IMG/VR virus record: IMGVR_UViG_3300048835_000830
Span: 102,639-166,638 of that record
Reading direction: 5' to 3' (one strand)
DNA length: 64,000 bases
DNA from: a virus
Position 1 is the first letter of the stretch. Every line of letters begins with the position of its first letter. Below are positions 6,696 to 31,422 of this stretch, piece after piece. Position numbers and translations under genes: made by a program. Below the pieces are notes generated by a model. That model ran no database searches, was not told where the DNA came from, and worked only from the letters and a program-made list of their open reading frames with translations.

Positions 6696-6962
6696 ATGCC
6701 CTCATGCTGCGGAAATCCTTATAAGCACCTGGGCCGTGCCCAGGATCTGACCTACACTCTTCTCAGAACGCTACGAAGTATTGCGAATGGTAATGGGGCG
6801 GGTGTGACGGAGATAACCTTACGCGAGCGCCTTGAGATTTGCGCCGCGTGCGAAGAAAAGCGAGGTCTTCGCTGTCAAAAATGTGGGTGCTTCGTAAGCG
6901 TCAAGGCAGCGCTTTTTGAAGCCGAGTGCCCGCTTCAAAAATGGCCGCTACCTCGCAGGTAG
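6696..6962 (+). CDS. Small Cys-rich protein, isolated on the plus strand
   Basis: An 88-residue protein with a C-terminal Cys cluster (CAACEEKRGLRCQKCGCF...CPLQKW) matching small phage proteins with a CxxC-CxxCxC-C pattern that end in CPxxKW. I choose the ATG at 6696 because GGAGG lies 5 nt before it; the frame itself opens at 6675. It is the only rightward gene in the first 22 kb and converges on the next leftward gene with a 15-bp overlap. A zinc-binding role is likely; function unknown. Confidence 0.65.
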   Translation: MPSCCGNPYKHLGRAQDLTYTLLRTLRSIANGNGAGVTEITLRERLEICAACEEKRGLRCQKCGCFVSVKAALFEAECPLQKWPLPRR

Positions 6963-7283: not shown

Positions 7284-7300
7284 GCCGCTTACTCCTTCCT

Positions 7301-8968: not shown

Positions 8969-9016
8969 GGTCGAAAACTCCTTTTGCGCACACTTGGCGC
9001 ATTCTGAAATGGATTT

Positions 9017-9481
9017 GTCACCGCTCCGCGGAGCGGAACTTGTCCGTCGATCGTTTTTTGAAAGGGCTGGTGATTTGGGTGGTGCCGTATTTTTCAGTTA
9101 TTTCGTTACATTACATCCGTTGTCACCGTGTCACCAGTGAAATTTTTGCGATTTTTGCGCAACGGTGACGCTTTTTTTGAAACCATATCGGAGGCTTACC
9201 CGATTCTGTCACCGCGTCACCGCGAAAACCCCCTTTTTAAACCCCCTATGTGAAAAACATCGCTAATTGTTTTTACTCAGAGCGCCAATCCGGGTGTGCA
9301 TGAAATCGGGAAAGAGACGCGAAAAAAATCCTCTATGGGAAAAAGAATGACTCTTGCGGTGACACGGTGACATTTATATGTTTTGATTTATATGGGGCTT
9401 TAATCATTGGCTTTTATGCGGATTTTTTTTGTCACCGATTCTGTCACCGGAGAGGCTTTCTGTCACCGATCCAGCGGTGAC
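9017..9481. repeat. GTCACC word cluster (possible origin or operator region)
   Basis: A 680-bp gene-free stretch (8969-9651) holds twelve copies of GTCACC within 465 bp. Direct copies start at 9017, 9122, 9130, 9208, 9216, 9431, 9443 and 9462; inverted copies (GGTGAC) start at 9164, 9358, 9366 and 9476. Three pairs are spaced exactly 8 bp apart (9122/9130, 9208/9216, 9358/9366). AT-rich tracts lie between them. A 16-bp perfect palindrome covers 9021-9036. Clustered words on both strands next to AT-rich DNA are typical of iteron origins or multi-site operators. No gene for a known initiator sits beside it; a role in replication or in control of the SbcC-like operon is inferred. Confidence 0.65.
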
Positions 9482-9520
9482 ATTTACGTTTTTTTTATTT
9501 TGTTAGTGCCAAAGTGGCCG

Positions 9521-9552
9521 AAAAACCCAGGCCCCGGAGCCCGAAGCCTGGG
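9521..9552 (-). terminator. Intrinsic terminator of the 10.65-9.65 kb operon
   Basis: Read leftward, a perfect 7-bp stem (CCCAGGC / GCCTGGG, 9546-9552 with 9526-9532) is followed by five T. It lies 100 bp after the stop of the 9652 gene and before the GTCACC cluster, so it isolates the two leftward transcription units. Confidence 0.75.
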
Positions 9553-9651
9553 TAAAATCAAGGTTTATGCAAGGGCCTTCGTTCCTAACGACAAAAGTTT
9601 GGAATCGGCATAAACCGGGATGTCGGTACTCTGCTTGATTTGACGCAGTTG

Positions 9652-10110
9652 TCAGGAGGGCGAGAGGCGGTCCCTGAGGCGCTTTTGGATCTCGACGAGA
9701 TATTCCGCAGCGCGGGCGGCATCCTCGCGGCTCATGCCCGTTTTCACGGTCAGGCGGACCCTTTCGAGGTCGGCCTCGGTCATGAGATGGGGGTAGTAGC
9801 AGCGGAGCCTGGCCGCCGTCTCCTCCTTGTGGACAAGGGCGGCCATTATTACGCTTTTGGAAAGATCGCGGTAACTCTCGGCCGCGCCTATGGGGCCAAG
9901 GCCAACGCCATCGCTCAGAGATTCGAGAAGGGCGATCTCAAGATAACGAAGCCGCGTCACGGCACGAATGAGCCTATGAAGCTCGGGCTCGTTTTCAGGC
10001 CCCGTGAAAAGACCATCCATCAGATCTGTCAGACAGCGGGGATTGCCGGCGACCTCGCGCATGATCTGAAGAAAGTCGAGTGCAAACGCGTCCGAATCGA
10101 ATTTTTCCAT
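9652..10110 (-). CDS. Hypothetical helical protein
   Basis: A 152-residue, mostly helical soluble protein with a pair of heptad-rich helices at the C-terminus (AARAAEYLVEIQKRLRDRL). GGGAGG precedes the ATG at 10110, and a TATAAG promoter-like element lies 35 nt further upstream. A terminator follows, so this gene may form its own transcript. No family recognised. Confidence 0.6.
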   Translation of the reverse strand: MEKFDSDAFALDFLQIMREVAGNPRCLTDLMDGLFTGPENEPELHRLIRAVTRLRYLEIALLESLSDGVGLGPIGAAESYRDLSKSVIMAALVHKEETAARLRCYYPHLMTEADLERVRLTVKTGMSREDAARAAEYLVEIQKRLRDRLSPS

Positions 10111-10144
10111 GGGCCTCCCGATCCTTTAAAAATGTCACAAAACT

Positions 10145-10152
10145 CTTATACC
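10145..10152 (-). promoter_or_regulatory. Promoter-like element GGTATAAG (copy 1)
   Basis: On the minus strand GGTATAAG followed by AGTTTTGT, with the start codon of the downstream gene 35 nt away. The same 8-mer occurs at 16422, 17383 and 32584, each time in the gap before a leftward gene. TATAAG would serve as a -10 box. No clear -35 is seen, so an extended -10 or a phage sigma factor may be used. Confidence 0.5.
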
Positions 10153-10160
10153 GAAAACTT

Positions 10161-10652
10161 CTAGCGCCGTGGGCGCTGAAGCCTCGCAAGCACGAGATAG
10201 ACGATCGTGCAGAGAACGGCCGCTGCAAGACCGATGATGAGAAGGGTCAGGGCGAAATCATCCTGACGGCGCCTTGCGTCGAGCTGCCCCTGAACGATGC
10301 TGATTTGCTTTGAGAGAGCCTCGATTCCCCCGTCAGGGCTGCTTTTGCAGGTGACGGAAAGCTTTTGTGAGATGGCCTCAGTCAGAATTTCTGTGAACTC
10401 TGTGGCCACAGGCCCTGTGCCGAAAAGGGAGTCTCCTCCGCGGTCGATCTCCATCGCCTTTACGTAGCCGGCTGGCGTTTTGATAAGGACAAGAACGTCG
10501 GGCCTTCCCTCGGGGATTTTTACCGTGTCGGCCACAGGCTCAGAACCATCCATGACCCAGGACGCCTTGGAGGCCGGTTTTTGCGGGAGAGTCGCCTGCG
10601 CGATCGGTTTTTGCGGAAGAGGGGGAACTTTGACATTGATCTCTGTGGCCAC
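10161..10652 (-). CDS. Membrane-anchored protein, possibly lysis related
   Basis: A 163-residue protein starting at GTG (10652) after AAAGGA. The first 35 residues are Pro/Lys-rich and contain a repeated PLPQKPIAQATLPQKPA motif. Residues 130-157 form one C-terminal transmembrane helix (FALTLLIIGLAAAVLCTIVYLVL), followed by a basic tail. It lies directly downstream of the CHAP endolysin gene (28-bp gap), so a part in lysis (spanin, holin or anti-holin) is possible by position only. Confidence 0.55.
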   Translation of the reverse strand: MATEINVKVPPLPQKPIAQATLPQKPASKASWVMDGSEPVADTVKIPEGRPDVLVLIKTPAGYVKAMEIDRGGDSLFGTGPVATEFTEILTEAISQKLSVTCKSSPDGGIEALSKQISIVQGQLDARRRQDDFALTLLIIGLAAAVLCTIVYLVLARLQRPRR

Positions 10653-10680
10653 CGGGTATCCTTTGGCGGCGGCCGCGAGG

Positions 10681-11346
10681 TCAGCTCTGCTTTACCTCCG
10701 GGCGCTCGACCGAGTCGGGGTTGAATGGGGCAATAAAGCCGACGAGGCGCATTTTGCCAATCTGTTTTGTTGACCTTATCTTACGATAAACCCCATCGCC
10801 CTCACGCTCAATCGTATTGTCGTCAGGCGAGGTGTTCCCCTCAATAGTTTCGATTGTAAACTCGTCGATCACCCGACTCACAATCCCGATGTGCCCGCTC
10901 GCTGTCCCCTCGTAGTTCCAGATGACGACAAAGCCCGCCTTGGGTGAACGGTGGCGATGGACACCTGGAGTTCTATTCCAGATCGTCATGCAGTGCTCGC
11001 TGACGGCCATGACGAGGGTCGCTCCAAAGCGCATCTGGACTTCTTTCACACAAAACTGGACGAAACAGGCACACCACGGCTCGCCGAGCGCCTTGCCATC
11101 GACCGCTTTTTGGAACCGCACGACCTCGGGCCCTTTGTTGTTGCCTCCCGCCTCGTGCACGCCGATCCACTTTTCCGCCTCGCGTATGAGTTCACGGCGG
11201 AAGTCCACGAGGATGAAAAGAGGGGGAGCCGCCCTCGCCTTTTCAGGAGCATCGGAAACGGGAGGGGGCTCAGGCATTCTTTCCGGGTCCCTCCGACCAA
11301 AGGAACGCGTCGCCATCCAATCGATCAGCTTTTTGACCCAGTTCAT
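10681..11346 (-). CDS. CHAP-domain endolysin / peptidoglycan hydrolase
   Basis: A 221-residue protein. Residues 55-205 match the CHAP / NlpC-like amidase-peptidase pattern found in phage lysins: a helix with IREAEKWIGVHE, catalytic Cys within PWCACFVQFC (near residue 94), catalytic His within GHIGIVSRV (near residue 152), and the acidic/Asn partner in IEGNTS. The N-terminal 40 residues are Pro-rich and contain a short amphipathic start. No signal peptide, so it would need a holin. It would cleave cell-wall peptides or amide bonds at the end of infection. GAGGGGG precedes the ATG at 11346. Confidence 0.8.
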   Translation of the reverse strand: MNWVKKLIDWMATRSFGRRDPERMPEPPPVSDAPEKARAAPPLFILVDFRRELIREAEKWIGVHEAGGNNKGPEVVRFQKAVDGKALGEPWCACFVQFCVKEVQMRFGATLVMAVSEHCMTIWNRTPGVHRHRSPKAGFVVIWNYEGTASGHIGIVSRVIDEFTIETIEGNTSPDDNTIEREGDGVYRKIRSTKQIGKMRLVGFIAPFNPDSVERPEVKQS

Positions 11347-17333: not shown

Positions 17334-17371
17334 AATTAAAAAGAGGACTCAGCTCAAAGCTAAGTCCTCTT
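17334..17371 (-). terminator. Terminator-like hairpin between a promoter-like element and the 17301 gene
   Basis: Leftward, AAGAGGACT and its perfect complement AGTCCTCTT enclose an inner AGCT pair, followed by TTTTTAATTTT. It lies downstream of GGTATAAG (17383) and 33 bp before the start at 17301. It could end the array transcript or attenuate the 17301 operon. Confidence 0.7.
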
Positions 17372-17382
17372 CCTACAAAAGC

Positions 17383-17429: not shown

Positions 17430-18831
17430 CGCGCCTTCCGGCACGCATCAATTTATGATTAAATCCTTCTACCGCTCTCAGAGCCTTCTGCGAGGCCGAC
17501 CTAATGCCGCTTTCTGCTATCGCTCTTTCGAGCCTTCTTGAAACCCTATCCGTAATCTTGCCGCTTATCGCTCCTTTGAGCTTTCCGATTTCCCGCCTTC
17601 TAAGGCTTGTTTCGTAACGCTCTTTCGAGCACAGCCGACCATGTAAATGAATTTATAGTTCCTCTATCGCTCCTTCGAGCTTTAATCAAATCCCTGCTCC
17701 TGCACTTGTCTCCTAACGCTCCAAAGCGAGCAGGTCATGCCCATCGGTCTAAGGAGGCCTACCTTCCATCTAACGCTCCACGGAGCAAGGCTGGCCCACA
17801 GTGAGGTTGAATGTCTGCTATCGCTCCAAGGAGCTCACTGCATAGCTAACTTTTAGCTGTCCTTTTCTATCGCTCATCGAGCATTACGGGACTTCGTTTC
17901 AGCTGACCTTTATCGCTCTTTCGAGCCGTAGTGGTGCGATATCGTCTATTTTTCTAACGTTCCAAAGAACACTCTGCCGCTCGCACGGTCACCGTCTAAC
18001 GCTTCTGAAGCCTTTGTTCGCATCGTGAAATGCACCGTCTATCGCTCCTTCGAGCCAATCAAGCACGCAAACTTATCCTGCCTATCGCTCGGTAGATGTG
18101 GAGCTTTCATTCCACCCGCCCACCAGCCCTGCCTATCGCTCCCAAGGGAGCCCTCCACAGAAACACAGTCTTTCCGTCTATCGCTCTTTCGAGCCGCTGT
18201 GAACATTAAGGTCCTTTCAAATACCGCTCGCGTAAGAGCTGCCCTCTATGGGGATTTCCGTGGACTTCCTCCTACCGCTCTTGCGAGCGCTGGTATAGCG
18301 CTCCACGAGCAAAGGCGTTGCTTGGCGTGCCTTCTATCCCTTTAACGCTCCCGAAGGAGCTTTGCAGGCCGCGTTTCGCGGATCCTTTCCTTCTATCGCG
18401 CCTTTCACGATGTTCCCCGCTCTATCTCCTATCGCGCACCGTGTGCACCAAATACTGGCTTATTTGCCTAACGCTCTCACGAGCAGGGAGTCACAGCTTC
18501 GATACTCTTCTAGCGCTCTCACGAGCTGAAATATATCTGGTTTCTCGACTATTCTCTCCTAGCGCTCCCTATTGAGCGGACGGGCGTCTGTCGCATCATT
18601 TTCTCTTTTCTAACGCTCTTTACCGAGCGGCGTGCCCTTGCCCAAGCTTCTACTCTTTTCTAACGCTCTTTCGAGCCTGATTTTTTATTTCCTACCTTCA
18701 CCTACCGCGCACGCCTTGTGCGCGACCTGACGCCCCCTTTTTTGGGGCCGCGAGAGCCGATGTAAGCGACGCATAACGCTCCGAGGAGCAAAGCTCTCAA
18801 TGCACAGGATTATTAGCTCATTCTACCGCTC
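17430..18831 (-). CRISPR. CRISPR-like array of ultra-short covarying hairpin repeats
   Basis: No open gene fits this 1.4 kb. Plus-strand hairpin starts: 17474, 17522, 17570, 17619, 17669, 17718, 17775, 17823, 17872, 17915, 17959, 18001, 18044, 18087, 18138, 18183, 18226, 18277, 18300, 18347, about 18395 (decayed), 18434, 18473, 18515, 18564, 18615, 18665, 18707, 18778; a last tag without a full hairpin lies at 18820-18831, and a 6-bp GGAA-loop hairpin at 17430-17446 may close the array. Spacing is 36-57 bp with outliers of 23 and 71, mean near 47. On the minus strand each unit reads GCTC-loop-GAGC then GNTAGRNR then a unique spacer (22-37 nt, one about 4). Stems covary: GTTC/GAAC at 17959, GCTTC/GAAGC at 18001, GCGCAC/GTGCGC at 18707, GCTCCC/GGGAGC at 18138. 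Eight loops are GNRA on the minus strand only. The tag resembles the type I-F crRNA handle. The array follows the cas-like genes on the same strand. Confidence 0.8.
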
Positions 18832-19929
18832 CTCCTCCTCGCTGCCCGCTTCTGTCTTTACCCTTGGAAAATCGACGCCCGCGGCTTTTAGAGAAGCCTC
18901 GCTTAAAACAGGGAAACTCGCATCGAAATCGCCCTTTGGCAAGCTGTATTCGAGAGACACAAAACCTGTGCCCCACTTGCCGTAAAAGCAGCTCATGGGG
19001 CCACTTCGTACACGCGCCTCCTCTTCTTCGGTCAGATTTTCAATGAGAAGGTCGAAATCCGTGGTCGCAAAAGTCATGGGTGCGCCGCGAACATAAAGGA
19101 CACGTTCCGGCGGGATATCCACCCACTGGCCGGTGTGCTGCGGATAAGGAATGATCGAGAACTTCGTGGATTTCACATCGTTCAACCGGTCGCGCCATGT
19201 GGGGTCGCCGCAGAGGCGGTGAATCTCCCCGAGCAGCTCAAAGTGGGTCTTTGATACCGGAATCTTTCGTCCGGAAAAGCCATTGTGGATATACCCTGCG
19301 GCCTGCCCCAGGTATTCGAGGAACTTGCTCTCTATTTTGGAAGTCGCATTAAAACGGTCGAGCTTTGGTACGGCGGCTTCGAGCTCGTCCTTGTAGCGAA
19401 GCGCCAGAAGATCGACTTCTTTCAACTCCTTGCCTTCGCTCTTTTTCTTCAGTGCCACATGAAATCGCCTCTGTCTCACCGCGGACACCGAGAGGGCATC
19501 CTGGAGGGCCGCATTCACGTCGCCAAGGCTCTCGGCGCCCGTGACCCTCGTCAGTGCAGGGCGGAGGTGCGCGATGAGCGTATTCGCATATTGCCAGCCG
19601 AAATCGTCAATCCTTATTTTGCTCGGAAGGACCTTCGACGAATACTGTCCGAAGACCGTGTGGCAAAAGGGCTCTCTTACAACGCGGCACTTCATCCGCG
19701 CGAGCATGGTCTCGCGCATGGGGTCATCGAAAAGGGGCGGCTCGGAGTGCTTGGCATGCACTCGCCTCACCTCACCAAGGATATAAGAGAGCATTCCCCG
19801 GCGCATCGACTCGCCGCAGAGGGGCAGAAACCTTTCCCCCTCACCCTCGCAAAGGTCCATGGCGCAGTAGCCGTTTGTGTCCGTTTTTATAATGAGCCCG
19901 CCGCTGCGCGCCCGAATGAGAAGGTGCAT
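18823..19929 (-). CDS. Cas5-like (or Cas8/large-subunit-like) protein of the array operon
   Basis: A 368-residue protein, third gene of a tight operon, starting 2 bp after the Cas7-like stop. I do not recognise it by sequence with certainty. It begins with a beta-strand start (HLLIRARSGGLIIKT), has a long basic helical middle (RQRRFHVALKKKSEGKELKEVDLLALRYKDELEAAV) and a C-terminal Gly-containing strand region (CFYGKWGTGFVSLEYSLP) like a RAMP fold. In type I-F2 (I-Fv) systems a Cas5 of similar size replaces the large subunit; size, order and context fit that. The last codons are four Glu, Arg and TAG, and the TAG lies inside the first repeat tag (GAGC-GGTAGAAT), so gene and array are physically joined. 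Alternatives: type IV Csf3-like, or an unrelated array partner. Confidence 0.5.
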   Translation of the reverse strand: MHLLIRARSGGLIIKTDTNGYCAMDLCEGEGERFLPLCGESMRRGMLSYILGEVRRVHAKHSEPPLFDDPMRETMLARMKCRVVREPFCHTVFGQYSSKVLPSKIRIDDFGWQYANTLIAHLRPALTRVTGAESLGDVNAALQDALSVSAVRQRRFHVALKKKSEGKELKEVDLLALRYKDELEAAVPKLDRFNATSKIESKFLEYLGQAAGYIHNGFSGRKIPVSKTHFELLGEIHRLCGDPTWRDRLNDVKSTKFSIIPYPQHTGQWVDIPPERVLYVRGAPMTFATTDFDLLIENLTEEEEARVRSGPMSCFYGKWGTGFVSLEYSLPKGDFDASFPVLSEASLKAAGVDFPRVKTEAGSEEEER

Positions 19930-19931
19930 GC

Positions 19932-20855
19932 TTACTCCGCGGCTTTGTAGGCTTTATAGAACGAGAGCGTATCGAGCGTTGCGATGAAGGTCCCAAAGTC
20001 CATCGACTTCGATTGGTTGCCATCGCTGAGCGTCACACGGATCGTCTCCGGAAGAAGCCTGAGGCTCGACCCGGCTTTGGCAATCTCTATTCTCTGAATG
20101 CGGTCAAAAAGATAGCCGAGCACGCGCCGTATCTGAAGGTCGTTGAGAAGAACCCCGTGCTGCGTGGCTTTTACGACGGCTGTTTTGTGGACGTACTTCC
20201 CAGGCGTTACGCGACCCTCCTCGCCGAGGCTTTCAAACATCCTGTTCATCTGCTCGATATAGGCAGTCTCGTCCTCCCGGCTTATAATGGCGTCGTCGCC
20301 GTAGTTGAGCGAGATAAAGCTCAGAGCGGAGAAATCGATTTTGGCTTCAAAATCCTGAAGACGCCTGCCGGCGTTGTCCTTGCTCCAAAAGCTCGTGTCG
20401 CTTACTTTTTCGCCTTTTTTATTCGTGAGGTTTGTCTCCTGCGGCTTTGAGCTGCGGCCAATGTCACTGAATGTGGCCCGATAAGCCCGCGCATCAAGCC
20501 CCTCAGTGGTCTTCCTTTGGCGCGTGTATTCCTTTCGCGTGTAGGCATCAAGAACGCAAAGAGGGCTCGTCCTTTTGCAGCCGCGCTCAGGCATCATGAG
20601 CCCTCGTACAATCCCTATCATGGAAGCCGCGATGGGCACCGCGTTGTCATACATCTCGCGGGTTGCCGGCTGACGCGGCATGAGGTCAGCGAAGATCGTC
20701 CGCCGAAGAAGGCGGCTCGACGTGAAGTCAAAGCCGAGGGCGTCCCTTTTTGCGAAGAGATGGTTTTTTTGCTTGGCCGTCGTCGAGCGGCCGTTCATGT
20801 TGACGATACCGATTACGTCGAGGTCGGCTTTCACTGTGATCGTTTTGATTTGCAT
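19932..20855 (-). CDS. Cas7-like backbone protein
   Basis: A 307-residue protein between the Cas6-like and Cas5-like genes. The start (IKTITVKADLDVIGIVNMNGRS) is the first strand and loop of a Cas7-type RRM, followed by a basic region with LLRRTIFADLMPRQPATR, which resembles the thumb and palm of I-F-type Cas7. The last third ends in a long amphipathic helix pair. No catalytic motif of Cas7 type III (no Asp in a target-cleaving loop) is apparent. The expected role is a filament of several copies along the spacer part of the guide RNA. GGGAAC precedes the ATG at 20855, 12 bp after the Cas6-like stop. The call rests on fold-like motifs plus gene order, not on a database match. Confidence 0.6.
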   Translation of the reverse strand: MQIKTITVKADLDVIGIVNMNGRSTTAKQKNHLFAKRDALGFDFTSSRLLRRTIFADLMPRQPATREMYDNAVPIAASMIGIVRGLMMPERGCKRTSPLCVLDAYTRKEYTRQRKTTEGLDARAYRATFSDIGRSSKPQETNLTNKKGEKVSDTSFWSKDNAGRRLQDFEAKIDFSALSFISLNYGDDAIISREDETAYIEQMNRMFESLGEEGRVTPGKYVHKTAVVKATQHGVLLNDLQIRRVLGYLFDRIQRIEIAKAGSSLRLLPETIRVTLSDGNQSKSMDFGTFIATLDTLSFYKAYKAAE

Positions 20856-20867
20856 GAGGTTCCCATC

Positions 20868-21359
20868 TTATTTGAAATCTTTGATGATGATCAGACCAAA
20901 GCCGTACGAGCGGCGCCCGCCGACCCCGTTGAAATATGCGTTGTCGAATAGCTCCCGGTTGACAATATTGAATTGGCCGTAGATGCGGAAAGCCGTTCGG
21001 ATCGTGAACTTGTGGGTTTCAAGAAGGCCGAGGTTATAGATCTCTGAGTCTATAGGCTTGAGGCCGGCCTGCGCCGTGAACATGGCAAAGGCCTCGTGCG
21101 TCCGCCACTCCTTTCGGAAAATGCCTTGGCTCTTGCTATCAAAGACGACATTGCACGACAGCTCAACCTCAACAGTGCCCTCGGGGAGGCGCAGCATATC
21201 AAAGGTGGCGTCCGGGGTTACGAGCGGCGTCTCGGTTGTGGCAACGTAAACCCTGGTACCCTCGACGCTTACAGCAACCCGCTCTTTGAATGCCTTTCTT
21301 ATAATCGCATGCACATCGTTTAAATCTGGCGGCCTGCCAGTATCGTAGCAATAGAGCAA
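20868..21359 (-). CDS. Cas6-like RNA endonuclease
   Basis: A 163-residue protein with the hallmark Gly-rich loop of Cas6/RAMP proteins near the C-terminus: G-V-G-GRRSY-G-F-G, which fits GhGxxxxxGhG exactly with two Arg in the middle. His17, on the first predicted helix (NDVHAIIRKAF), is a good candidate for the catalytic residue of Cas6 enzymes. The length is short for Cas6 (usually 180-240), which may suit the very short hairpins of the neighbouring array. The start is a TTG at 21359 with GAGGGA upstream; no ATG fits. First gene of the array operon. Expected role: cutting the array transcript at the 3' base of each hairpin and leaving an 8-nt tag. Confidence 0.7.
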   Translation of the reverse strand: MLYCYDTGRPPDLNDVHAIIRKAFKERVAVSVEGTRVYVATTETPLVTPDATFDMLRLPEGTVEVELSCNVVFDSKSQGIFRKEWRTHEAFAMFTAQAGLKPIDSEIYNLGLLETHKFTIRTAFRIYGQFNIVNRELFDNAYFNGVGGRRSYGFGLIIIKDFK

Positions 21360-22466: not shown

Positions 22467-23663
22467 ATGTCCCGAGAGAAAGTCGCACAGTTTAGAGCCC
22501 GAATCAAGGACCCTCAGGTTAGAAAATCCGTGGATAACGCCATCAGCTATCGACGCGGCCGCGATGTCCGCGAAGAGGATATTTTGGCTTTTCTCCAGCG
22601 GGAGTATGGTGCGCATCTGCCAGCAGAAACCGGTAATTTTGATGGATCGTCAGCTCTCAAAGTGGAGCCTCTGAATTCAGATCCGGAGTCAGAATCCGAT
22701 ACTGACACGGAAAGTCCTGGCATACTGAACTCAGAGCCGCCTCCCCCTGAAAGGGAGATTACCGAGGCGGAAGTGGCTGCGATGATCGAGCAGATGCAGT
22801 CCATCAGAGTCAGCCACCTGCACCATATCGGAGAGGGTGTTGTGATCGAAATGCCGCCGCAGAAAAAACGTGCTGAGGCAGAACCTGAACTTCAGAAGGC
22901 TGCTGAACCCCTGAAGGACAAGGATTCTGAGTCACCAGCCGCCGACGCGCCGATGCCGAAGAAAAAGTCAGTTCTGAATTCAGTGCGCCGAGTGAAAAGG
23001 GTGAAACTGAACTCAGAAAGGTCGGAGGAAAAGGAAAAAACGGCTGGGACGAGCCCCATGCGTTTGGTGCCCCAGCCGTCGCCGACCAAAACCGTTTTCA
23101 GCACTCTCGTGCTTCTGACCCTGATTGGCTTTATGTCCTATTATCTCATAGCCGCCACCGAGGCGCTCTATGGAACAGGCATCGCCACGCTTTTAGTGCT
23201 GATTCCTCTGGCCTTTGTCTTTTTTGTCAAAATCCCGGTTGTGCGCTACCTGGCGCTGGCCCTCTTCCTCGGGGTGGACCTATTGTCGGTCGGGGCCCTC
23301 CATAAGATCGAAACCGCAGGGATCAGTGTTTCAACGCTCGACGGCAACGCTGAATACCAGAGACTGAAAATTCAGTACGCCAAGGGAGAGCTGGAGCGCG
23401 ATGGGATCAACCTCAGAACGCACCCGACACTCCGCGATCAGAAAGCCGAAGAGCTAAAAAAAATCTCTGCTCGAATGACAGAGATTGAAGGCGGGAGTCG
23501 GCAGACTGTGGAGGCCACCGCCGAGAAGTCGCGGGCTGACGTGACCCTTGGTGTCAGGGCCCTTCTTCTCGTTGCGGCAGCCGTTTTTGCTCACGCGCTC
23601 CTCCACTATACGATCAGCATCGACTTCGACAAGTGGGTGAGAAAGGCCTTTGGGAGAGGCTAG
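22467..23663 (+). CDS. Multi-pass membrane protein with disordered N-terminal half
   Basis: A 398-residue protein with an AAGGAGG box before the ATG. Residues 1-55 form a basic helical domain; residues 60-205 are acidic and low complexity, then Lys/Arg-rich. Residues 210-280 hold three membrane helices (TLVLLTLIGFMSYYLIA, TLLVLIPLAFVFFV, YLALALFLGVDLLSVGAL); a soluble coiled-coil loop follows, and a fourth helix (ALLLVAAAVFAHALL) near residue 375. The acidic region contains four LNS motifs encoded by CTGAAYTCAG palindromes. No family recognised. It is the only rightward gene between 7 and 32.6 kb, and it converges with the next gene. Confidence 0.6.
   Translation: MSREKVAQFRARIKDPQVRKSVDNAISYRRGRDVREEDILAFLQREYGAHLPAETGNFDGSSALKVEPLNSDPESESDTDTESPGILNSEPPPPEREITEAEVAAMIEQMQSIRVSHLHHIGEGVVIEMPPQKKRAEAEPELQKAAEPLKDKDSESPAADAPMPKKKSVLNSVRRVKRVKLNSERSEEKEKTAGTSPMRLVPQPSPTKTVFSTLVLLTLIGFMSYYLIAATEALYGTGIATLLVLIPLAFVFFVKIPVVRYLALALFLGVDLLSVGALHKIETAGISVSTLDGNAEYQRLKIQYAKGELERDGINLRTHPTLRDQKAEELKKISARMTEIEGGSRQTVEATAEKSRADVTLGVRALLLVAAAVFAHALLHYTISIDFDKWVRKAFGRG
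22671..23016. repeat. Four CTGAAYTCAG palindromes inside a gene
   Basis: Copies at 22671-22680, 22725-22734, 22974-22983 and 23007-23016, alternating AT and AC at the centre. All lie in the low-complexity part of the membrane-protein gene and in the same reading frame. Confidence 0.5.
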
Positions 23664-23938
23664 CTCAGCATGGAGCGCTCGATCCGTGCGAGGCGTTCGA
23701 GCGCTTTTTCGCTGAACGGGTGGCCACTTTCAGCAATACACGACCGCAACTCCTGCATGCGCTGGCGGCATCGGTCTTTTTCTACGACGTGGCTGTAGGT
23801 CAGCCCGAGCAGGTCGGATCGGAATGTGCCGTCGAGCTCCATGAGCGCAAAAATCTTTTCGTGGGCCTTGGTTGGGAAGTATTCAGGATGACGGAAATTT
23901 GTTAGGGCGCGGTTTACGTAATAATCTGTGCTGTGCAT
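23660..23938 (-). CDS. Small protein, paralogue of the 25.4 kb gene
   Basis: A 92-residue helical protein. It shares with the 25217-25459 product a pattern: FxHPEYF/FHPDCF, then EKIFALMELDGTFRSDLLGLT/EKIFAILHLAGGYQWGLLGIT, then a His, then charged helices with C-terminal HP and LERLARI/LEKFREI. The two are clear paralogues. GGAG precedes the ATG at 23938. Function unknown. Confidence 0.6.
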   Translation of the reverse strand: MHSTDYYVNRALTNFRHPEYFPTKAHEKIFALMELDGTFRSDLLGLTYSHVVEKDRCRQRMQELRSCIAESGHPFSEKALERLARIERSMLS

Positions 23939-24073
23939 GAAAACTCCAAATCAGCTTTGGTTTGTGGATGACGATTGACATTGGGCCAGGTATGCTGGCT
24001 TCGCAATGGTACGCTGCAATCCCGGAAGGCCAGAAACGCTGCCAGCGCTTGGGGTCTCCGGGACCAAGCCCGA

Positions 24074-24460
24074 GGGCCTGTAATGGTTTCGACGGGAGGC
24101 GAAGAGTGCCGGTGCATGCCGGGCGTGTCTTGGGGCCCGATAACAACCGAGGCAAAACCTAAATGACACCGATAATGTCATCCGCGTAGAGTTCGGCCGC
24201 AAGGCTGAAAAGGTCGCGCTGGCCGCCTAATCGCAGCCAGGGAGCGTGCTGGCCCGTGCCGTTATCCGACCAGCCCCGTCGCCGTCAGCGGGTCATCTGA
24301 GGGCAAAAGCGGCCGCCAGGAGCCGTAGCCAGATCCTGGCTGGTGGAGCTGCACCCTAACCGGTGCACCCTTCCTCGCCCCGGAGTTGACCCGGGGACAA
24401 GCATGTAGAGCTGTCATTGCCTTTGTCTTTCGGACGCGGGTTCAACTCCCGCCAGGTCCA
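24074..24460 (+). ncRNA. ssrA: tmRNA (transfer-messenger RNA)
   Basis: A 387-nt one-piece tmRNA. The 5' end GGGCCTG (24074-24080) pairs over 7 bp with CAGGTCC (24453-24459), followed by the discriminator A. TTCGACGGG near the 5' end and GGACGCGGGTTCAACTCCCGCC near the 3' end are canonical tmRNA blocks. CCA is not encoded. The tag frame ends in GCG CTG GCC GCC TAA (ALAA, stop at 24228-24230); upstream in frame are NDTDNVIRVEFGRKAEKV, so the tag is unusually long unless the resume codon lies inside. It tags products of stalled ribosomes for proteolysis and frees the ribosome; carried on a phage it would support late translation. Confidence 0.9.
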
Positions 24461-24465
24461 CTTAC

Positions 24466-24623
24466 GGCGGGAGTATGCAAGTGGCAAAGCAGGGGGACAT
24501 TCAGGAAATCCCCTGTCTCTGATGCGGGTCTGGCGCCGGGCCCCGTCGGCTGAGATTTCCGGCCGTGCACGGCTGAGCATTTCAGTCTTTGAGGCTTCGC
24601 AGGTTCGAGTCCTGCCTCCCCCA
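24466..24623 (+). tRNA. tRNA-like gene with oversized internal region
   Basis: Five nt after the tmRNA. The 3' part is a canonical T-arm (GCAGG-TTCGAGT-CCTGC, 24599-24615) plus acceptor strand CTCCCCC and A73 at 24623. The 5' part (24466 on) gives an acceptor GGCGGGAG pairing with one bulge, T8-A9, and a canonical D-arm TGC-AAGTGGCAAA-GCA with G18G19. An anticodon-like stem GGGGA/TCCCC follows, with an 11-nt loop that contains CAG. About 90 nt of extra sequence separate this from the T-arm. Total 158 nt is far above a normal tRNA. It may be a Leu-type relic, carry an insertion, or be a tRNA mimic. Confidence 0.4.
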
Positions 24624-24654
24624 CTTCTGATCATCGTGAGACGCGTTAAAGGTG

Positions 24655-24705
24655 CCCCGAAGACGATCCGCGCTGCAGCAGACAGGAAAAGTCCAGGGTT
24701 CGGGG
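24655..24705. other. Stem-loop after the tRNA-like gene
   Basis: CCCCGAA (24655-24661) pairs perfectly with TTCGGGG (24699-24705), enclosing 37 nt. It may end the tmRNA/tRNA-like transcript or be part of a further RNA. The gap 24624-24760 holds nothing else I can support. Confidence 0.4.
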
Positions 24706-24760
24706 TTTAATGGGTACGGTCAGCCTTGTGGGGAAGTGACGCTCCCCCGTCTCGCAATGG

Positions 24761-24922
24761 TCAGAGAGCCATGAGGTAATGCAGGAAAGCGAGTGAGATA
24801 AAGTCGGCTGCTCGATTTTCAAGGACAGAGAGCAGCTTGCGCGGACGCCAGACCTCCAGTGATCTTAGGAACTCCGCGTCAAGCTCGTCTTGAATCATTT
24901 GAACTATGGATTTACCTGACAT
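24761..24922 (-). CDS. 53-residue small protein
   Basis: A short frame, MSGKSIVQMIQDELDAEF...FLHYLMAL, from the ATG at 24922 to TGA at 24761-24763. It begins 11 bp after the stop of the 24933 gene, with a modest GAGGG box. It is predicted to be entirely helical with an amphipathic C-terminus. Function unknown. Confidence 0.45.
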   Translation of the reverse strand: MSGKSIVQMIQDELDAEFLRSLEVWRPRKLLSVLENRAADFISLAFLHYLMAL

Positions 24923-24932
24923 CGGCACGCCC

Positions 24933-25187
24933 TCACCGGACGGGCTGACGGTTGGAGGGCCATGTGGCTGGATGGTCGCCGATCAGATACTCCGCGAACT
25001 GCGGATAGCGGTGCGGGGCTTTTCGGACTTTATCTCTTAGCCTTTTACGCGAAGGTTTTCGTGTCCAGGCGAACCCCAGACCAACCTGCATTGGAATGCG
25101 CATAGCGGAAACGAAGCCCGCCTGTAAAATGTCCTCACGCGTTACCGATGCGCTTTCGTCCACGATTATGGCGTTTGAATCTGGCAT
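24933..25187 (-). CDS. Small basic protein
   Basis: An 84-residue protein. The frame opens at 25220 but AAGGAGG fits the ATG at 25187. The N-terminal 30 residues are folded (IIVDESASVTREDILQAGFV); the C-terminal half is basic (RKPSRKRLRDKVRKAPHR), suggesting nucleic-acid binding. Part of the leftward operon that starts near 31.4 or 32.5 kb. Confidence 0.55.
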   Translation of the reverse strand: MPDSNAIIVDESASVTREDILQAGFVSAMRIPMQVGLGFAWTRKPSRKRLRDKVRKAPHRYPQFAEYLIGDHPATWPSNRQPVR

Positions 25188-25216
25188 TTGAACCTCCTTC
25201 ATGTTCTGCGCCCAAT

Positions 25217-25459
25217 TCACGCTGCACCCGTGATCTCACGGAATTTCTCCAGCGCTTCGTCCGCCCTGGGATGGCAGCTCCTCTCGATGAGTCGGCGCAC
25301 GCGTTCAAATTCCGCTTCCCTCTTCTCTTTGTCAAGAAAATGCAGCTGCGTAATCCCGAGAAGCCCCCACTGATATCCGCCGGCAAGGTGCAAAATGGCA
25401 AAGATCTTTTCGGCCGCCTCGTCTTTGAAGCAGTCCGGATGAAAAAACGTATCGCTCAT
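25217..25459 (-). CDS. Small protein, paralogue of the 23.9 kb gene
   Basis: An 80-residue helical protein with the pattern FHPDCF...EKIFAILHLAGG...LLGITQLHFLDKEKR...HPRADEALEKFREI, matching the 23660-23938 product in order and spacing. AAGGAGA precedes the ATG at 25459. Function unknown. Confidence 0.6.
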   Translation of the reverse strand: MSDTFFHPDCFKDEAAEKIFAILHLAGGYQWGLLGITQLHFLDKEKREAEFERVRRLIERSCHPRADEALEKFREITGAA

Positions 25460-25468
25460 GAAATCTCC

Positions 25469-25855
25469 TTAAACAGCCCAGTCGATCTTTGTGGGGACAG
25501 CGCCCCACTTTTCAAGCACAAGGTCATAGATCTGGTTCAAAGAGAGGCGTATCGGATCCTCTCCTTTTTTTACAGCAACCGCGTTCAGGCGCACCACCGC
25601 ACGAGCCGGGTAGACGACGTTTTCCATCACAATCGCCACGTCGTCAGCAGACAGGACTGCCGCAAGGTCCCGCAGGATATCACCAACGATAGGCCTTCCG
25701 TCGGCTCCCTGATGAGCCCTTGGGATCCCCGGCGACTCCTTCCCTACCCGCTTAAAGCCGAAGCGATCGCCGTCCCGCCTCAGCGGCGTAAGGTCCCACT
25801 TTTTCACAAACCGCTCAAACTCTTTCTCATCTGAAACCCGAAAGAAGTTGGACAT
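25469..25855 (-). CDS. Hypothetical protein, about 128 aa
   Basis: Starting at the ATG at 25855 gives MSNFFRVSDEKEFERFVKKWDL..., a start common in small phage and plasmid proteins that resemble part of a ferredoxin-like fold. The frame itself opens at 25909, overlapping the upstream gene; no strong ribosome site separates the two options. The C-terminal half includes a DDVAIVMENVVYPARAVV strand pair. Function unknown. Confidence 0.5.
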   Translation of the reverse strand: MSNFFRVSDEKEFERFVKKWDLTPLRRDGDRFGFKRVGKESPGIPRAHQGADGRPIVGDILRDLAAVLSADDVAIVMENVVYPARAVVRLNAVAVKKGEDPIRLSLNQIYDLVLEKWGAVPTKIDWAV

Positions 25856-26165: not shown

Positions 26166-29100
26166 TTAGAAAATCCCATAGCCGTCCATCATGGCCTTCT
26201 GCCCCTGGCGAAGCGGAACGACTGTGCTTTTCGGCGATTCCGTTTCCTGCACGACATCCGGATCGATGAGCTCCAGTGCAACGTGGTCGATCACCCAGAC
26301 GCGGATGCGGGCGTTGCCCTTGCGAACGAGCTTTGTGCTCCGATCGCTATCCACCTCTTTGATGATCTTGGCATCGAGCAGCTGACGACCAACCGTCTTT
26401 TTCGGAAGGCTTGTCCCCTGCTGCCGCATCACCTCGTTGATCTCGTTCATGACCGTCTCGGGGTAGTAGTAGCCCGTCTTCGGATCGCTGGGGTCAGGCA
26501 GATAGCCGACAACGGGTGCCCTGAGAGCCTCGACACTCTGGTGAAGACCTTCGACCCGCACCTTGCCCGAAAGGATGAGAGCGAGAAGAATCGACTTGAA
26601 GTTGGTCGCCTCCTGCTCCTCTTCGCAGCGAAAGACCATCCGGTGATAGAGCGACTGGCAGATGGCCCAATGCCGCTCGTTCATCTGGTCACGCTCGGAT
26701 GTTGTGATCACGGCCGAGTCCTCCATGAACGAGGTGAAAAGCCTCCAGGTCAGGTGGTTTCCGGCCACGTTCTCGGCAATGCGGCTCGCGTTCTGCCGGC
26801 CTTTGGCAAAGCGGTAGAGCGTTATGCGGAGAGCTTCGTAGTCATCCTGAAGGATCTTCGCTTCGCGGCCCAAAAGCCAGTGAAGAAAACGAGGGGTGAT
26901 CCCTGCGTAGTTTTTCGCCATCTTTTGCACGCGGAAATAGGCTTCGTGGGTCATGTCGTTATTGAAGCGGTGGACCTCAAGGAGAAGCGTTCGGGCCACA
27001 ACGGACGCCTGATGCTGGATGAAGCCTTCGCCTGACATGATGAGAGTTGCCCGGTTTTTCCGGGCCTTTCTCGCCGTCGAATCGCGGTTGAGTTTTCCCG
27101 TTGAGCTGCCGTCGTAGCCATACTGGATCTGGTGCATCACAGCGTTTTTCTGCTGAGGCGTAATCCCCTTGAAGTCGTCGAGAACAAGGCAGGCATCGTT
27201 AAACTCGTGGGCCATCTCTTCGAGGTATTTTTGCGTGACCGTGAGGTTTACAAGGGAGGAAAAGTTGCCCCAGAACATCTGGAGGATCTTGAGGAGCTCT
27301 GACTTTCCAATGCCCGAAAGCCCGTCGTAGAAAAGCGTCGGAAAGTGAGACCAGCCCATGACCTTCATCATAAGGGGCCGCATGACGTGGGCAAGGCCGA
27401 TGTAGGTCCACTCATCAGGCCACGCCGAGAGAAAGTCATCTTTGATGTGACGGAGGGTCTCCTGGAAAACGTCGTCTTCGAGGATTTTCCAGTCGAGGTT
27501 TTTGACAACGTCCTTGTGCGAGGTGTCGAGAACTCCGGATTTTGTCGGGCGAAGCCCGCCGGCGTCGACCGTCACTGAAGGCATGAGGTAGGTCCCCTCA
27601 TAGAAGCCCTGGGTAAGGAGCGAGGAAACCTTTTGCATGAGGTTTTTCTTTTCGCTCCAGCCGAGGACAGCCTGCTTCACATCGTCGATCTGCTTTCGTT
27701 TGGGCTGAAACTTCGGGCCTATAAGCTTTGTGAAAAACTTCACAAAATCCGAATCGGTTGACCACACGTCGGTATCAATCTCAAACGACTTTTCCCCGTC
27801 GGCGTCTTTTACGATGCCCCGGTAGACCGTTCGACTGATGCCGCTCTCTTCCATGTAGTAGCGCACCTCATGGATCAGGATATCGACCTCCAGAAGAAGG
27901 GTTTCGGTGAGCTGGTCCTTGCCCTTTGTGATCTGGTAGTACCCATATTTTCCACCACCATAACGCTTTCTGTAAACATAGGAGCCCACCTCGTAGACGG
28001 AGCTATCCTCTTCGAGCATGACCTTTTCCAGCTCGAACTTGGCTTCCTCGGCGGCTTTGAACATGGGGCCGATCTTGTTCTTTGGCACCTTGAGGGGCTT
28101 TTGAATGCGATCGACGTACTCTTTGAACTGCTTGACCTTGGGCTTGTCGAGGGCCTGGGCTCGCCGTGCAAGCTCGCGGAGTCCGTCCTCTTTTTGAAGC
28201 TGATCCTCAACCTGAAGAAGCGAGTCTGCCCCTTTTGTGAGCTCGTGAAGAAGCTCCGCGCCTTGGCTAAAGGCAAAGCGGTAGGGGTTATACTCCTTTT
28301 GATCCTGTTCATTGAGGTCTTCGAGCGCACCTTCAGTGATCTCGGCTTCGCCCGGTTTTGCCTTGGGGCGGGGCGCCGCCTCAATGCAAAGACCCTGCTT
28401 GTGGCAGATCCCCTGCTCTTTCATGGTGCTGCAGCTATGCGGCCGGTAGTTCTTTTTGATCGAGAACTCGAGCTGCTTGGCTTCGCTCTGCGTCCGCCCC
28501 CAGGTCGTGACGTTTTTTTGAAACCAGTCCTTGCCGTCGACGGTGTTGATAGCCAAATGCCAGAGCGCCATCCCCTCGACGTGCGAGGGCTCATGGCCTT
28601 CGCCTCTGATGCGGGCCGTAAGATCACGGAAAGCCTCGCACCCATAAAGCACCTTTTCAATGTGCCCGTGGGGTCTTGCACTGCCATCGCCTACGATCTG
28701 CCGACTGGCGCTCTCCACAGCTCTTTTCTTCAGTACCGCAATGTCCTCGATCTTGAGCGCATAGTGCTCGATGATCTTTTCAAAGGCGGCCGGATCCGCC
28801 CACGGAAGGTTTTCGAGATGGTCCCACTGGGCGTCGATCATGGCCTGGCCGTCTTCGATCTCCTGGCCGATCATGACATCGTTGTCATCGACCCAGCACT
28901 TTTTCCCCTTCATCATAAGGGGCTCGATCATGGGTGGAGTGATGCCGTTGCCGAGAAAGCCCTGGCTCACGTAGTCCTGCTTGGGAAAGATCTCGGGGAA
29001 GGCCGGTTTTGCACGCTCTTTCACATAAATGTCAAAGCCTGCCGCCTCAAAAAACTTCGACATGACCGCGCGAAAGCGGACTGCAGGGTAAGGCTCTTTG

Positions 29101-29546
29101 AAGAAGACGTAGACGTGGTAGCCGTTGTTTGTGCTGCGGGCGATGCCGTAGTCGATGCCGCGCGCTTTAAGGATTTTGCAGAACTTTTTCACCTCGAAAA
29201 AGCTATAGCCCTGCGCTTCCTTGCCCGGCTTATAATCGAAGTCTATTGCCCCAAACCGAATCATCCCCTCGTCGAGGACGAGATAGTAGTTGTGGACGTG
29301 GTGAGCCGTGATGTGCTGTTTGACGTTTTGGTCTGAGACCGGCTCCCACAGCTGGTTCTCGCAGTCACTGCAGGGGACGCCGGTCCCCCGCTCGATATGG
29401 CAGACGGAGGTCCAGATGTTATTGCAAACGGGCGAGTAAACCGTTCTCTCTTCGCCTTCCTTGCCGACCTTCCTTGCGCGGCCAAAGATGTCCTGCCGTC
29501 CGTGAAAGCGCGCGCGAAAAACTTCGATCTTCCGTGCCATATCCAT
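26166..29546 (-). CDS. AEP-type primase fused to an AAA+/SF3-like helicase
   Basis: An 1126-residue protein. Residues 8-210 resemble the archaeo-eukaryotic primase module known from TOTE conflict elements: FRARFHGRQDIFGRARK, a catalytic acidic motif GAIDFDY (near residue 100), and RSTNNGYHVYVFF as the basic-His motif. A Cys cluster CSDCENQ lies ahead of the catalytic core, another pair CSTMKEQGICHKQGLC near residue 375. Residues 660-930 are an ATPase: Walker A GLSGIGKSE (near residue 745), Walker B CLVLDDF, and a sensor in ATLIMSGEG. Together this is a priming and unwinding enzyme for phage DNA replication. Start ATG at 29546 with a GGGGAT box. It is followed by short genes and preceded by an SNF2-type helicase, 4 bp away. 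Confidence 0.75.
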   Translation of the reverse strand: MDMARKIEVFRARFHGRQDIFGRARKVGKEGEERTVYSPVCNNIWTSVCHIERGTGVPCSDCENQLWEPVSDQNVKQHITAHHVHNYYLVLDEGMIRFGAIDFDYKPGKEAQGYSFFEVKKFCKILKARGIDYGIARSTNNGYHVYVFFKEPYPAVRFRAVMSKFFEAAGFDIYVKERAKPAFPEIFPKQDYVSQGFLGNGITPPMIEPLMMKGKKCWVDDNDVMIGQEIEDGQAMIDAQWDHLENLPWADPAAFEKIIEHYALKIEDIAVLKKRAVESASRQIVGDGSARPHGHIEKVLYGCEAFRDLTARIRGEGHEPSHVEGMALWHLAINTVDGKDWFQKNVTTWGRTQSEAKQLEFSIKKNYRPHSCSTMKEQGICHKQGLCIEAAPRPKAKPGEAEITEGALEDLNEQDQKEYNPYRFAFSQGAELLHELTKGADSLLQVEDQLQKEDGLRELARRAQALDKPKVKQFKEYVDRIQKPLKVPKNKIGPMFKAAEEAKFELEKVMLEEDSSVYEVGSYVYRKRYGGGKYGYYQITKGKDQLTETLLLEVDILIHEVRYYMEESGISRTVYRGIVKDADGEKSFEIDTDVWSTDSDFVKFFTKLIGPKFQPKRKQIDDVKQAVLGWSEKKNLMQKVSSLLTQGFYEGTYLMPSVTVDAGGLRPTKSGVLDTSHKDVVKNLDWKILEDDVFQETLRHIKDDFLSAWPDEWTYIGLAHVMRPLMMKVMGWSHFPTLFYDGLSGIGKSELLKILQMFWGNFSSLVNLTVTQKYLEEMAHEFNDACLVLDDFKGITPQQKNAVMHQIQYGYDGSSTGKLNRDSTARKARKNRATLIMSGEGFIQHQASVVARTLLLEVHRFNNDMTHEAYFRVQKMAKNYAGITPRFLHWLLGREAKILQDDYEALRITLYRFAKGRQNASRIAENVAGNHLTWRLFTSFMEDSAVITTSERDQMNERHWAICQSLYHRMVFRCEEEQEATNFKSILLALILSGKVRVEGLHQSVEALRAPVVGYLPDPSDPKTGYYYPETVMNEINEVMRQQGTSLPKKTVGRQLLDAKIIKEVDSDRSTKLVRKGNARIRVWVIDHVALELIDPDVVQETESPKSTVVPLRQGQKAMMDGYGIF

Positions 29547-29550
29547 AAGA

Positions 29551-31422
29551 TTATCCCCGATAAGCGTTAAGGAGCGTCGTGTTTATTGATTGTTGCTGAG
29601 AGATGAGTTCGCTCTGGGCGGAGAGCTTGTCTTTGACGACCTGATGGATGTCCTCATCGATGGAGGGCGACTTTGAATACTGGCGCTTTGCCAAAAGATA
29701 ATAAACGAACATGGCATGCTGCTGACCCCCTCTTTCGATGCGCTTGACGCACTGGTAGTTGTTTTCTGCCGAATAGCTTTGCGAATAAAAGATCATGTAG
29801 TGAGCGTTTACGAACGTGATCCCGTGAGCGGCGGACTTCGGGTGAAGCACCGCGAGCCGGATGGCGGGATCGTTTATGAAGGCTTTGACGTTGGCGAGGT
29901 TTTGCGCCCCGCTGTTGCCGCCGTAGACGGAAACAATTCCATGCTTCTTATACCGCCGAACGATCTCTTCTATTTCATAGACATACTCGGCATAGATAAT
30001 GACCTTTTTGCTTGAGTCGATTTCCTCGTCGATCAGCACGTCAAGCGCCTCCATCTTTGGATTGACGGCAAGCGGGTGCACTGTGTCGGTCTGATCGATG
30101 AGAAAGCCGCCGGTTATCTGGCGGAGTTTCATGATGGCATGAAGCTTCTGGTCCACTGAAATGAATTCGTCGTTGACGATGGTGCTGAGGCTTTTGCGCA
30201 TCTCCTCGTAGTGGAGCTCCTGCTTTTTATCCATCGGTACCTTGCGGATGATGGTTGTCAGAGGAGGCAGGTCCTTCAGGTGCTCCCTAAGCTCCGCCCT
30301 AAAGACGTAGGGGTTTATGATGGAGGCCACTTTCTCGGCGGAGCCCTTCAGTTGAACCCACTTTTTCATTTCAATGGGCTCTTTCGCAGGCATCCCTGGA
30401 AGGGACGGGCTGCGCTCGCGCGAGCCCACGTAGACCTGGTCCATGAAGGTCGTTCTGAAGTCGTGAAAGTTCGGCTCCAGTAGAAAGCCGTTCGGATCGA
30501 TAAAATAAAACTGGCCCCACAGCCCCTCGATGCCATTGCTGGCCGGTGTTCCCGACATGATCACGCGCCAGCTGGCTTTGGCTGCGACCCGAAGAAGGGA
30601 TTTGCCGATCTTGCCGGATTTGGAGAGCTCGCCGTGATAGCCCTGAAGAACCGTGCTCTCGTCGACCACGACCTTCTCAAACTCCTTCGCCACTAGCTCC
30701 TCTTCGAGTACGGGAACCCCTTCGTGGTTGATGACGTAAACGTCAGCCTCCTCCGCCAGGAGCTTTCGGAGCTTTTCCTTTCTCTTCGTGCCTGGCGGCA
30801 GCCAGAGCATGACGACCTTAAGGTTTGTGAATTTTTTCGCATCCTCAAGCCAGCCCGTTTCGAGGGTCATAAGCTTGCCGCAGATGAGCGTTTTGCCCCG
30901 CCCGACGGTTCCAGCATTGATCTGGATCTCGGTTGAGACAAGGACCATGTACGTCTTTCCAAGGCCGCAGTCGGCGAAAAGCCCGGCTGCGCGCATGTTT
31001 AAAAGGAAGACGATGGCTTGATGCTGGTAGAGCCCGCGGGGTGGGCATTTGAAGGGAAGAGGCTCGGGCGATGGGTCCTGCTTGATGCGAAGCGCAGCGG
31101 CGCGCATCGCCCGAAACTCTTCAAATTTTGATCGAATCTCATTCAATTTTTCGCGGCCGCCTGACACCTCGAAGTCGCCAAACTGCTTTTTGAGCCGAAA
31201 GAGGTTCTGGCCGGAAAACGTCATTACGAACATTTTCCGCTTCTCGGAGAACCGCGCGTAGGCACCGACCGAGCGCCAGTAAACGCGGATCGCCTCGAAG
31301 GGGTCCCATTTCTCTTTTTCCGTTTCGTCCAGATCTTCGTAGGCTTTTTGCAGTTCGGGCGGAAGGATTTTGTCCCAGTGAAGAAGGATGGCATCTTTCC
31401 AAAAGGTTACCGAGACCCGCAT
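29551..31422 (-). CDS. SNF2-type (SF2) DNA helicase / translocase
   Basis: A 623-residue protein with SF2 motifs in order: Q-like LYQHQAIVFLL, Walker A DCGLGKT (near residue 165), Walker B VVVDEST (DEST for DExx), motif III SGTPASNG, motif V region AHGITFVNAHY and motif VI QCVKRIERGGQ. The layout resembles phage SNF2 helicases. It lacks an HD domain, so it is not a Cas3. It likely remodels DNA in replication or repair with the adjacent primase-helicase. It ends 4 bp before that gene starts. Confidence 0.8.
   Translation of the reverse strand: MRVSVTFWKDAILLHWDKILPPELQKAYEDLDETEKEKWDPFEAIRVYWRSVGAYARFSEKRKMFVMTFSGQNLFRLKKQFGDFEVSGGREKLNEIRSKFEEFRAMRAAALRIKQDPSPEPLPFKCPPRGLYQHQAIVFLLNMRAAGLFADCGLGKTYMVLVSTEIQINAGTVGRGKTLICGKLMTLETGWLEDAKKFTNLKVVMLWLPPGTKRKEKLRKLLAEEADVYVINHEGVPVLEEELVAKEFEKVVVDESTVLQGYHGELSKSGKIGKSLLRVAAKASWRVIMSGTPASNGIEGLWGQFYFIDPNGFLLEPNFHDFRTTFMDQVYVGSRERSPSLPGMPAKEPIEMKKWVQLKGSAEKVASIINPYVFRAELREHLKDLPPLTTIIRKVPMDKKQELHYEEMRKSLSTIVNDEFISVDQKLHAIMKLRQITGGFLIDQTDTVHPLAVNPKMEALDVLIDEEIDSSKKVIIYAEYVYEIEEIVRRYKKHGIVSVYGGNSGAQNLANVKAFINDPAIRLAVLHPKSAAHGITFVNAHYMIFYSQSYSAENNYQCVKRIERGGQQHAMFVYYLLAKRQYSKSPSIDEDIHQVVKDKLSAQSELISQQQSINTTLLNAYRG

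Follow-up and report, generated by a model that had tools for sequence, protein, structure and literature searches.

A phage-borne, CRISPR-derived guide array of mutually different hairpin repeats beside Cas7fv- and Cas6e-like genes

Type I-F2 CRISPR systems (I-Fv; Shewanella putrefaciens CN-32) need no large subunit, and their Cas5fv protein binds the 5' tag of the RNA (PMC6546366). Cas7 grips the RNA every 6 nt, and in the Shewanella I-Fv Cascade the length of the crRNA sets the number of Cas7 subunits (PMC11459484). Rare I-F variants, one of them between I-F1 and I-F2, are included in the 2025 classification (PMC12669027), and phages with CRISPR systems short of adaptation, nuclease or both are known (review PMC11656645).

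Loci with a Cas7fv, eighty from cells and one from a virus, served for comparison. Canonical I-F2 arrays proved to be very regular. In the 49 arrays detected, one of which was read on the wrong strand, 2,049 of 2,106 spacers are 32 nt long, and the general picture is one of about 2,000 spacers at 32 ± 1 nt and of a single repeat sequence in most arrays. Cas7 alignments in IMG/VR yielded a single viral match, the 363-kb virus contig IMGVR_UViG_3300021514_000002 (L032). Its I-F2 locus (5105-10868) has the order cas3-cas7fv-cas5fv-cas6f and nine near-identical 28-nt I-F repeats at 60-61 nt spacing; the Cas3 is without the Cas2 part, and no cas1 is found nearby.

The operon and its three proteins

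The window, that is the whole stretch of 64,000 nt that was analysed, covers positions 102,639-166,638 of the 166,638-bp virus record IMGVR_UViG_3300048835_000830. This 166.6-kb record is a tailed-phage contig, marked by a terminase large subunit, Baseplate J, a CHAP lysin, a portal, a head protease and helicases. The locus described here lies on the minus strand and has the following features, given in window coordinates:

20868..21359, minus strand: Cas6-like protein of the Cas6e type, predicted endoribonuclease, 163 aa, TTG start (PF08798, PADLOC, own Cas6e profile)
19932..20855, minus strand: Cas7fv-like backbone protein, 307 aa (NF040577, PDB 5o6u_C, I-F2 Cas7 profile)
18823..19929, minus strand: 368 aa, probable Cas5-like subunit (next gene after cas7, the place of cas5fv; C-terminal motif)
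17466..18827, minus strand: guide array of 30 GNTAGRNR tags, 29 of them with a preceding hairpin of 11-18 nt
17337..17375, minus strand: strong intrinsic terminator downstream of the array, with a T run after it (-25.5 kcal/mol, z -5.6)

The initial annotation, made from the sequence of the window, had placed about 29 hairpin units with unique spacers directly behind three tight genes of the same strand. This layout is correct in position and strand: the gaps between the genes measure 12 and 2 nt, the third gene ends within the first tag, and 30 tags were counted from 18827 to 17473, 29 of which have a hairpin (28 perfect, one imperfect).

The best supported of the three proteins is the second. 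The 307-aa protein matched the NCBIfam model NF040577 (Cas7fv) with an E value of 6.5e-20 and 71.7 bits; since the equivalog cut-off of this model is 200 bits, the protein is a homologue of Cas7fv and not an equivalog. It was also matched by the Cas7fv chain 5o6u_C of the PDB (E 5e-8) and found in an hmmsearch with a profile of 83 I-F2 Cas7 proteins (E 7e-15), its identity to any I-F2 Cas7 being only about 25%. From these matches, the 307-aa protein is classified as a divergent Cas7fv of type I-F2.

The 163-aa protein narrowly passed the cut-off of 25 of the Pfam family PF08798 (CRISPR_assoc; E 2.4e-5, 25.1 bits), and PADLOC labels it Cas6/Cas6e. With our own Cas6e profile it ranked first among the 1,381 open reading frames of the phage (E 2e-4, runner-up 0.39), and a global alignment to this profile spans all 163 residues (E 5e-6). 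The alignment pairs LNDVHAIIRKAF with the Cas6e segment bearing the invariant histidine, such that His17 falls on this residue (His in 17 of 19 rows), and includes the C-terminal glycine loop. An AF2 model of the protein alone reached a pLDDT of 31 and was unusable. Cas6f profiles gave no match, and identity as Cas6f was rejected. By profile and alignment, the protein is classed as a compact member of the Cas6 family, similar to Cas6e of type I-E, with predicted catalytic activity.

The 368-aa protein is probably Cas5-like, as suggested by its position and a C-terminal motif. Its gene lies directly behind cas7, as does cas5fv in cellular I-F2 systems, and its C-terminal SCFYGKWGTGFVS can be set against SSFYLGKKGLAYVS of Cas5fv. 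Among the 1,381 phage open reading frames it is the sole carrier of the motif GKxGx[AG][FY][VIL]. Cas5fv profiles showed no significant match to the protein, background reading frames and shuffled copies scoring equally high, and an AF2 model calculated with a Cas5fv alignment was poor (pLDDT 46) and gave no significant fold match.

These results modify the original interpretation, which saw a Cas5-Cas7-Cas6-like operon specifying a minimal I-F-related guide-RNA complex without a large subunit. The Cas7fv matches and the Pfam match to Cas6 support it, but the Cas6 is of the Cas6e and not of the Cas6f type, and the Cas5 assignment lacks a significant profile or fold match. Genes for Cas1, Cas2 and Cas3_HD were not detected in the 166.6-kb record, with positive controls matching for all three families; as the record is possibly incomplete, cas1 and cas3 could lie outside.

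Several other features of the record were recorded. Some 3 kb separate the cas operon from a full-length tmRNA gene (24074-24463, plus strand; Rfam E 1e-40; tag DTDNVIRVEFGRKAEKVALAA), the last 34 bases of which match enterobacterial phage sequences, in one phage inside an annotated repeat_region. A 1,126-aa protein (26166-29546, minus strand) contains a TOTE-type archaeo-eukaryotic primase domain and adjoins an SNF2-type helicase (29551-31422). In the structural region, a protein with an N-terminal carbohydrate-esterase 2 domain, possibly a tail depolymerase, is encoded at 58765-61038 (plus strand). The terminase large subunit (plus strand, record positions 22673-25690; L025 2673-5690) is split by an intein that contains a homing endonuclease domain of the LAGLIDADG type.

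Hairpin-tag units and the length of the guides

In 28 of the 30 cases, a perfectly paired stem, 4 bp or longer, closes exactly at the tag. At 18397 the hairpin is imperfect, and none precedes the first tag, which overlaps with the stop codon (TAG) of the 368-aa gene. On the minus strand, a strict pattern of hairpin plus GNTA[AG] was detected at 23 places, against none on the plus strand; in 500 dinucleotide shuffles the same pattern occurred 1.3 times on average and five times at most. The tag reads G-N-T-A-(mostly G) and keeps a UAG core, with the C before the tag and the G, T, and A inside it constant in all 30 copies. As GNTAGRNR it is similar to CTTAGAAA, the I-F tag in 48 canonical arrays. 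Nothing similar to the GTTCA start of I-F repeats is found in front of the phage stems.

Comparisons of the stems among each other showed that most arms are GCTC/GAGC, with paired replacements to GTTC/GAAC, GCTT/AAGC, GCGCAC/GTGCGC, and GTGCAC/GTGCGC. GNRA loops account for eight of the 17 four-base loops (binomial p ~1e-6) and for three of the ten distinct loops (p 0.015); UUCG and CUUG loops are also present, and the loops mostly differ from unit to unit. Because the stems change by paired substitutions and GNRA, UUCG, and CUUG loops recur, it is an RNA hairpin rather than a sequence that is conserved.

Standard definitions of CRISPR demand unique spacers beside cas genes, which the phage array has, and near-identical direct repeats, which it has not: all 28 hairpin-plus-tag units differ from one another. 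The repeats, initially described as ultra-short, are indeed reduced to a conserved part of about 12 + 8 nt, but they are not merely short, as every unit is different. A limited search of the open-access literature found no described array with repeats so short and so unlike each other, in line with the first impression. Copying by Cas1-Cas2 does not explain such an array, since it leaves mostly one repeat sequence in canonical arrays and here all units differ.

The spacers are mutually no more similar than shuffled spacers, and the claim that they are unique therefore holds. In 26 of 28 cases they start with a purine, and the tag may therefore comprise 9 nt. Two peculiarities were noted among the spacers: in one unit (window 18277-18299) the spacer is just 3 nt long, and in several spacers a GNTAG-like motif recurs about 8-11 nt past the tag.

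The distance from tag to stem was determined automatically by taking the smallest hairpin that closes at the tag. Of the 28 spacers measured, one is the 3-nt unit; the other 27 are 16, 22-25 (ten), 28-30 (fourteen), 35, and 46 nt long. In a scan of periods from 4 to 12, the best period was 6.0 (R 0.69, Rayleigh p 2e-6). In 5,000 draws from each of three null distributions (normal, uniform, smoothed) the observed periodicity was not reached once. The raw distances from tag to tag show the 6-nt step only weakly; since these include hairpins of varying size, the ruler extends from tag to stem and not from tag to tag. A mixture of two length components, outliers removed, was not favoured by BIC over a single component, and the case for a 6-nt step therefore rests on periodicity. 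The short units are clustered, eight of them being consecutive, and the lengths are for this reason possibly not fully independent. Inheritance of length through duplication of units could contribute to the ladder, although the spacers share no similarity. Considering the 6-nt steps together with the published Cas7 footprint, we infer that guides may be selected to accommodate whole numbers of Cas7 subunits.

Relationship to other systems

The locus shares with type I-F2 the Cas7fv homology, the order of cas7 and a gene of cas5fv size, and the lack of a large subunit among its three genes. A 3' hairpin and an 8-nt tag with a UAG core are also common to both, and crRNA length, which sets the length of the complex in I-Fv, would do so in the phage system as well. 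Unlike I-F2, the phage locus is without cas1 or cas2/3, and its cas6 is located upstream and is Cas6e-like. While I-F2 repeats are uniform and 28 nt long, those of the phage measure about 20 nt and are all different, and guides of 32 nt in I-F2 contrast with guides of 16-46 nt in steps of 6 nt. By the tests made, the locus is not a formal member of I-F2.

L032 resembles the phage locus in being a virus-borne I-F2-type effector with cas1 absent nearby, but it keeps Cas3, Cas6f, and canonical repeats, all of which are absent here. These three points suggest a series from cellular I-F2 through phage I-F2 without adaptation, with L032 as the intermediate, to the present locus; in the last step the nuclease would have been lost, Cas6 replaced, and the repeats set free to drift.

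The 163-aa protein is related to Cas6e (CasE/Cse3) of type I-E by its alignment over the whole length, the invariant histidine, and the C-terminal glycine loop. However, Cas6e proteins comprise about 200-230 aa, and the phage protein occurs beside Cas7fv and not in an I-E Cascade. The stem-loop arrays of TIGR-Tas (PMC12045711) are similar in being phage-borne, in their variable yet always palindromic stem-loops, and in their terminal terminator, but they are associated with Nop-domain proteins and have pairs of 8-12 nt spacers; since no Nop-domain protein was found for the phage locus, this identity was rejected. RNA anti-CRISPRs (Racrs) and viral mini-arrays are likewise phage-encoded crRNA-like RNAs, but they consist of one or two repeats identical to those of the host and have no Cas operon of their own, compared with 29 differing units here.

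Whether queried with the Cas6, with the 368-aa protein, with the Cas7 by itself, or with the primase, IMG/VR yielded no relatives. A DNA-pattern search for arrays of GAGCGNTAG units detected 23 stretches, and a stricter pattern none. Among the 23 stretches, L017 and L022 are period-9 tandem repeats resembling coding repeats and were rejected as similar arrays. L013 (IMGVR_UViG_2925711178_000005), another virus contig, whose tandem 27-base units combine a stem of 5 bp with the motif GGTAG, was rejected as an apparently ordinary tandem repeat. In L075, what had looked like an array with 45 unlike repeats was an ordinary array read from its other strand.

Possible mode of action and alternatives

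The locus is a real, unusual CRISPR-derived guide system, with an array, a conserved RNA structure, a length ladder, and homology to Cas7 and Cas6. It is probably the phage-borne descendant of a type I-F2 effector, stripped to the making of crRNA and the binding of targets, free of adaptation and nuclease, and silencing via hard-wired guides. A single transcript would cover the cas6-like gene, the cas7fv-like gene, the probably cas5-like 368-aa gene, and the array, and stop at the terminator. The Cas6e-like protein is predicted to bind each short hairpin and to cut at its 3' base. The processed RNA would then begin with GNUAGRNR as its 5' tag and end in a 3' hairpin, the guide between them measuring about 16-35 nt (in most units about 23 or 29, in one unit 46). 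The Cas5-like protein would hold the tag, Cas7 subunits would cover the guide at 6 nt each, and Cas6 would remain on the hairpin. Such complexes may bind complementary DNA, or possibly RNA, and block rather than shred it, because neither Cas3 nor Cas1-Cas2 is present in the record. The set of guides would be fixed and kept up by selection instead of spacer acquisition.

Given that nuclease and adaptation are absent from the record, the complexes most likely act by binding to genes of rival phages, plasmids, or the host and silencing them. The comparison of the spacers with sequence collections that the initial annotation had proposed yielded no target: matches to phage and plasmid collections are at chance level, no target was found in the fetched I-F2 loci, and self-targeting was rejected, as no spacer matches the phage's own record. 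For the more detailed picture we see an even chance. In it, about 28 guides evolve singly at lengths of whole Cas7 subunits of 6 nt and are served by a chimera of I-F2 Cas7 and I-E-type Cas6, which silences rather than cuts and has neither adaptation nor nuclease; the repeats drift freely so long as the fold and the UAG core stay.

Alternatively, the guides could bind RNA and silence messages of the host or of rival phages rather than DNA. Cas7 filaments of type III systems are able to pair with RNA, and neither PAM nor target came to light for the phage spacers. Against this, the I-F2 complexes, which are the nearest relatives, are PAM-dependent DNA binders (PMC6546366), which makes binding of RNA unlikely. 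Cutting of targets with a borrowed host Cas3 (or help from host Cas1-Cas2) would be in keeping with I-F2 systems normally using Cas2/3, which is missing from the phage record, and with known phages carrying partial CRISPR components (PMC11656645). It is distinctly unlikely: a match to host Cas3 is doubtful because the Cas7 is only about 25% identical to any I-F2 Cas7 and the Cas6 belongs to another family, and host Cas1-Cas2 is not copying the repeats because they are all different.

The hairpin RNAs and Cas proteins could also form dead complexes which titrate the CRISPR machinery of the host, as a multi-copy Racr. Single CRISPR repeats serve phages in this manner, with Cas6f and Cas7f as the proteins acted on (PMC10651486; review PMC11656645). 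Since Racrs copy the host repeat, the phage hairpins, which differ from each other and from I-F repeats, fit such a decoy badly, and it needs neither about 28 distinct spacers nor 6-nt length steps; it is very unlikely. Still less probable is a decayed, non-working I-F2 array and operon. Diverged repeats, odd units (3-nt spacer, imperfect hairpin), and missing cas1 and cas3 would be expected from decay, but an intact terminator, three closely packed genes that are all intact, compensatory changes of the stem pairs, the tag core C, G, T, A invariant in 30 of 30 copies, and the 6-nt length rule would not. That the hairpins are regulatory elements or protein-binding sites which by chance follow a RAMP-protein operon is scarcely credible: the repeats exceed standard definitions in shortness and variability, but the array continues directly from the Cas7/Cas6 operon, the tag resembles that of I-F, and the length period equals the Cas7 footprint.

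Taken as a guide system of silencing complexes, the locus is of interest in several respects. Natural three-protein, nuclease-free complexes could be of practical use for gene silencing. Similar arrays may be hidden in phage genomes, because standard CRISPR finders require near-identical repeats. The 6-nt ladder would be a genomic read-out of Cascade architecture and makes a directly testable prediction. The length and sameness of repeats are normally fixed through copying by Cas1-Cas2. This constraint is apparently gone here, and the needs of the effector itself would become visible: a stem that folds, a UAG-type tag, and a guide measuring whole Cas7 footprints.
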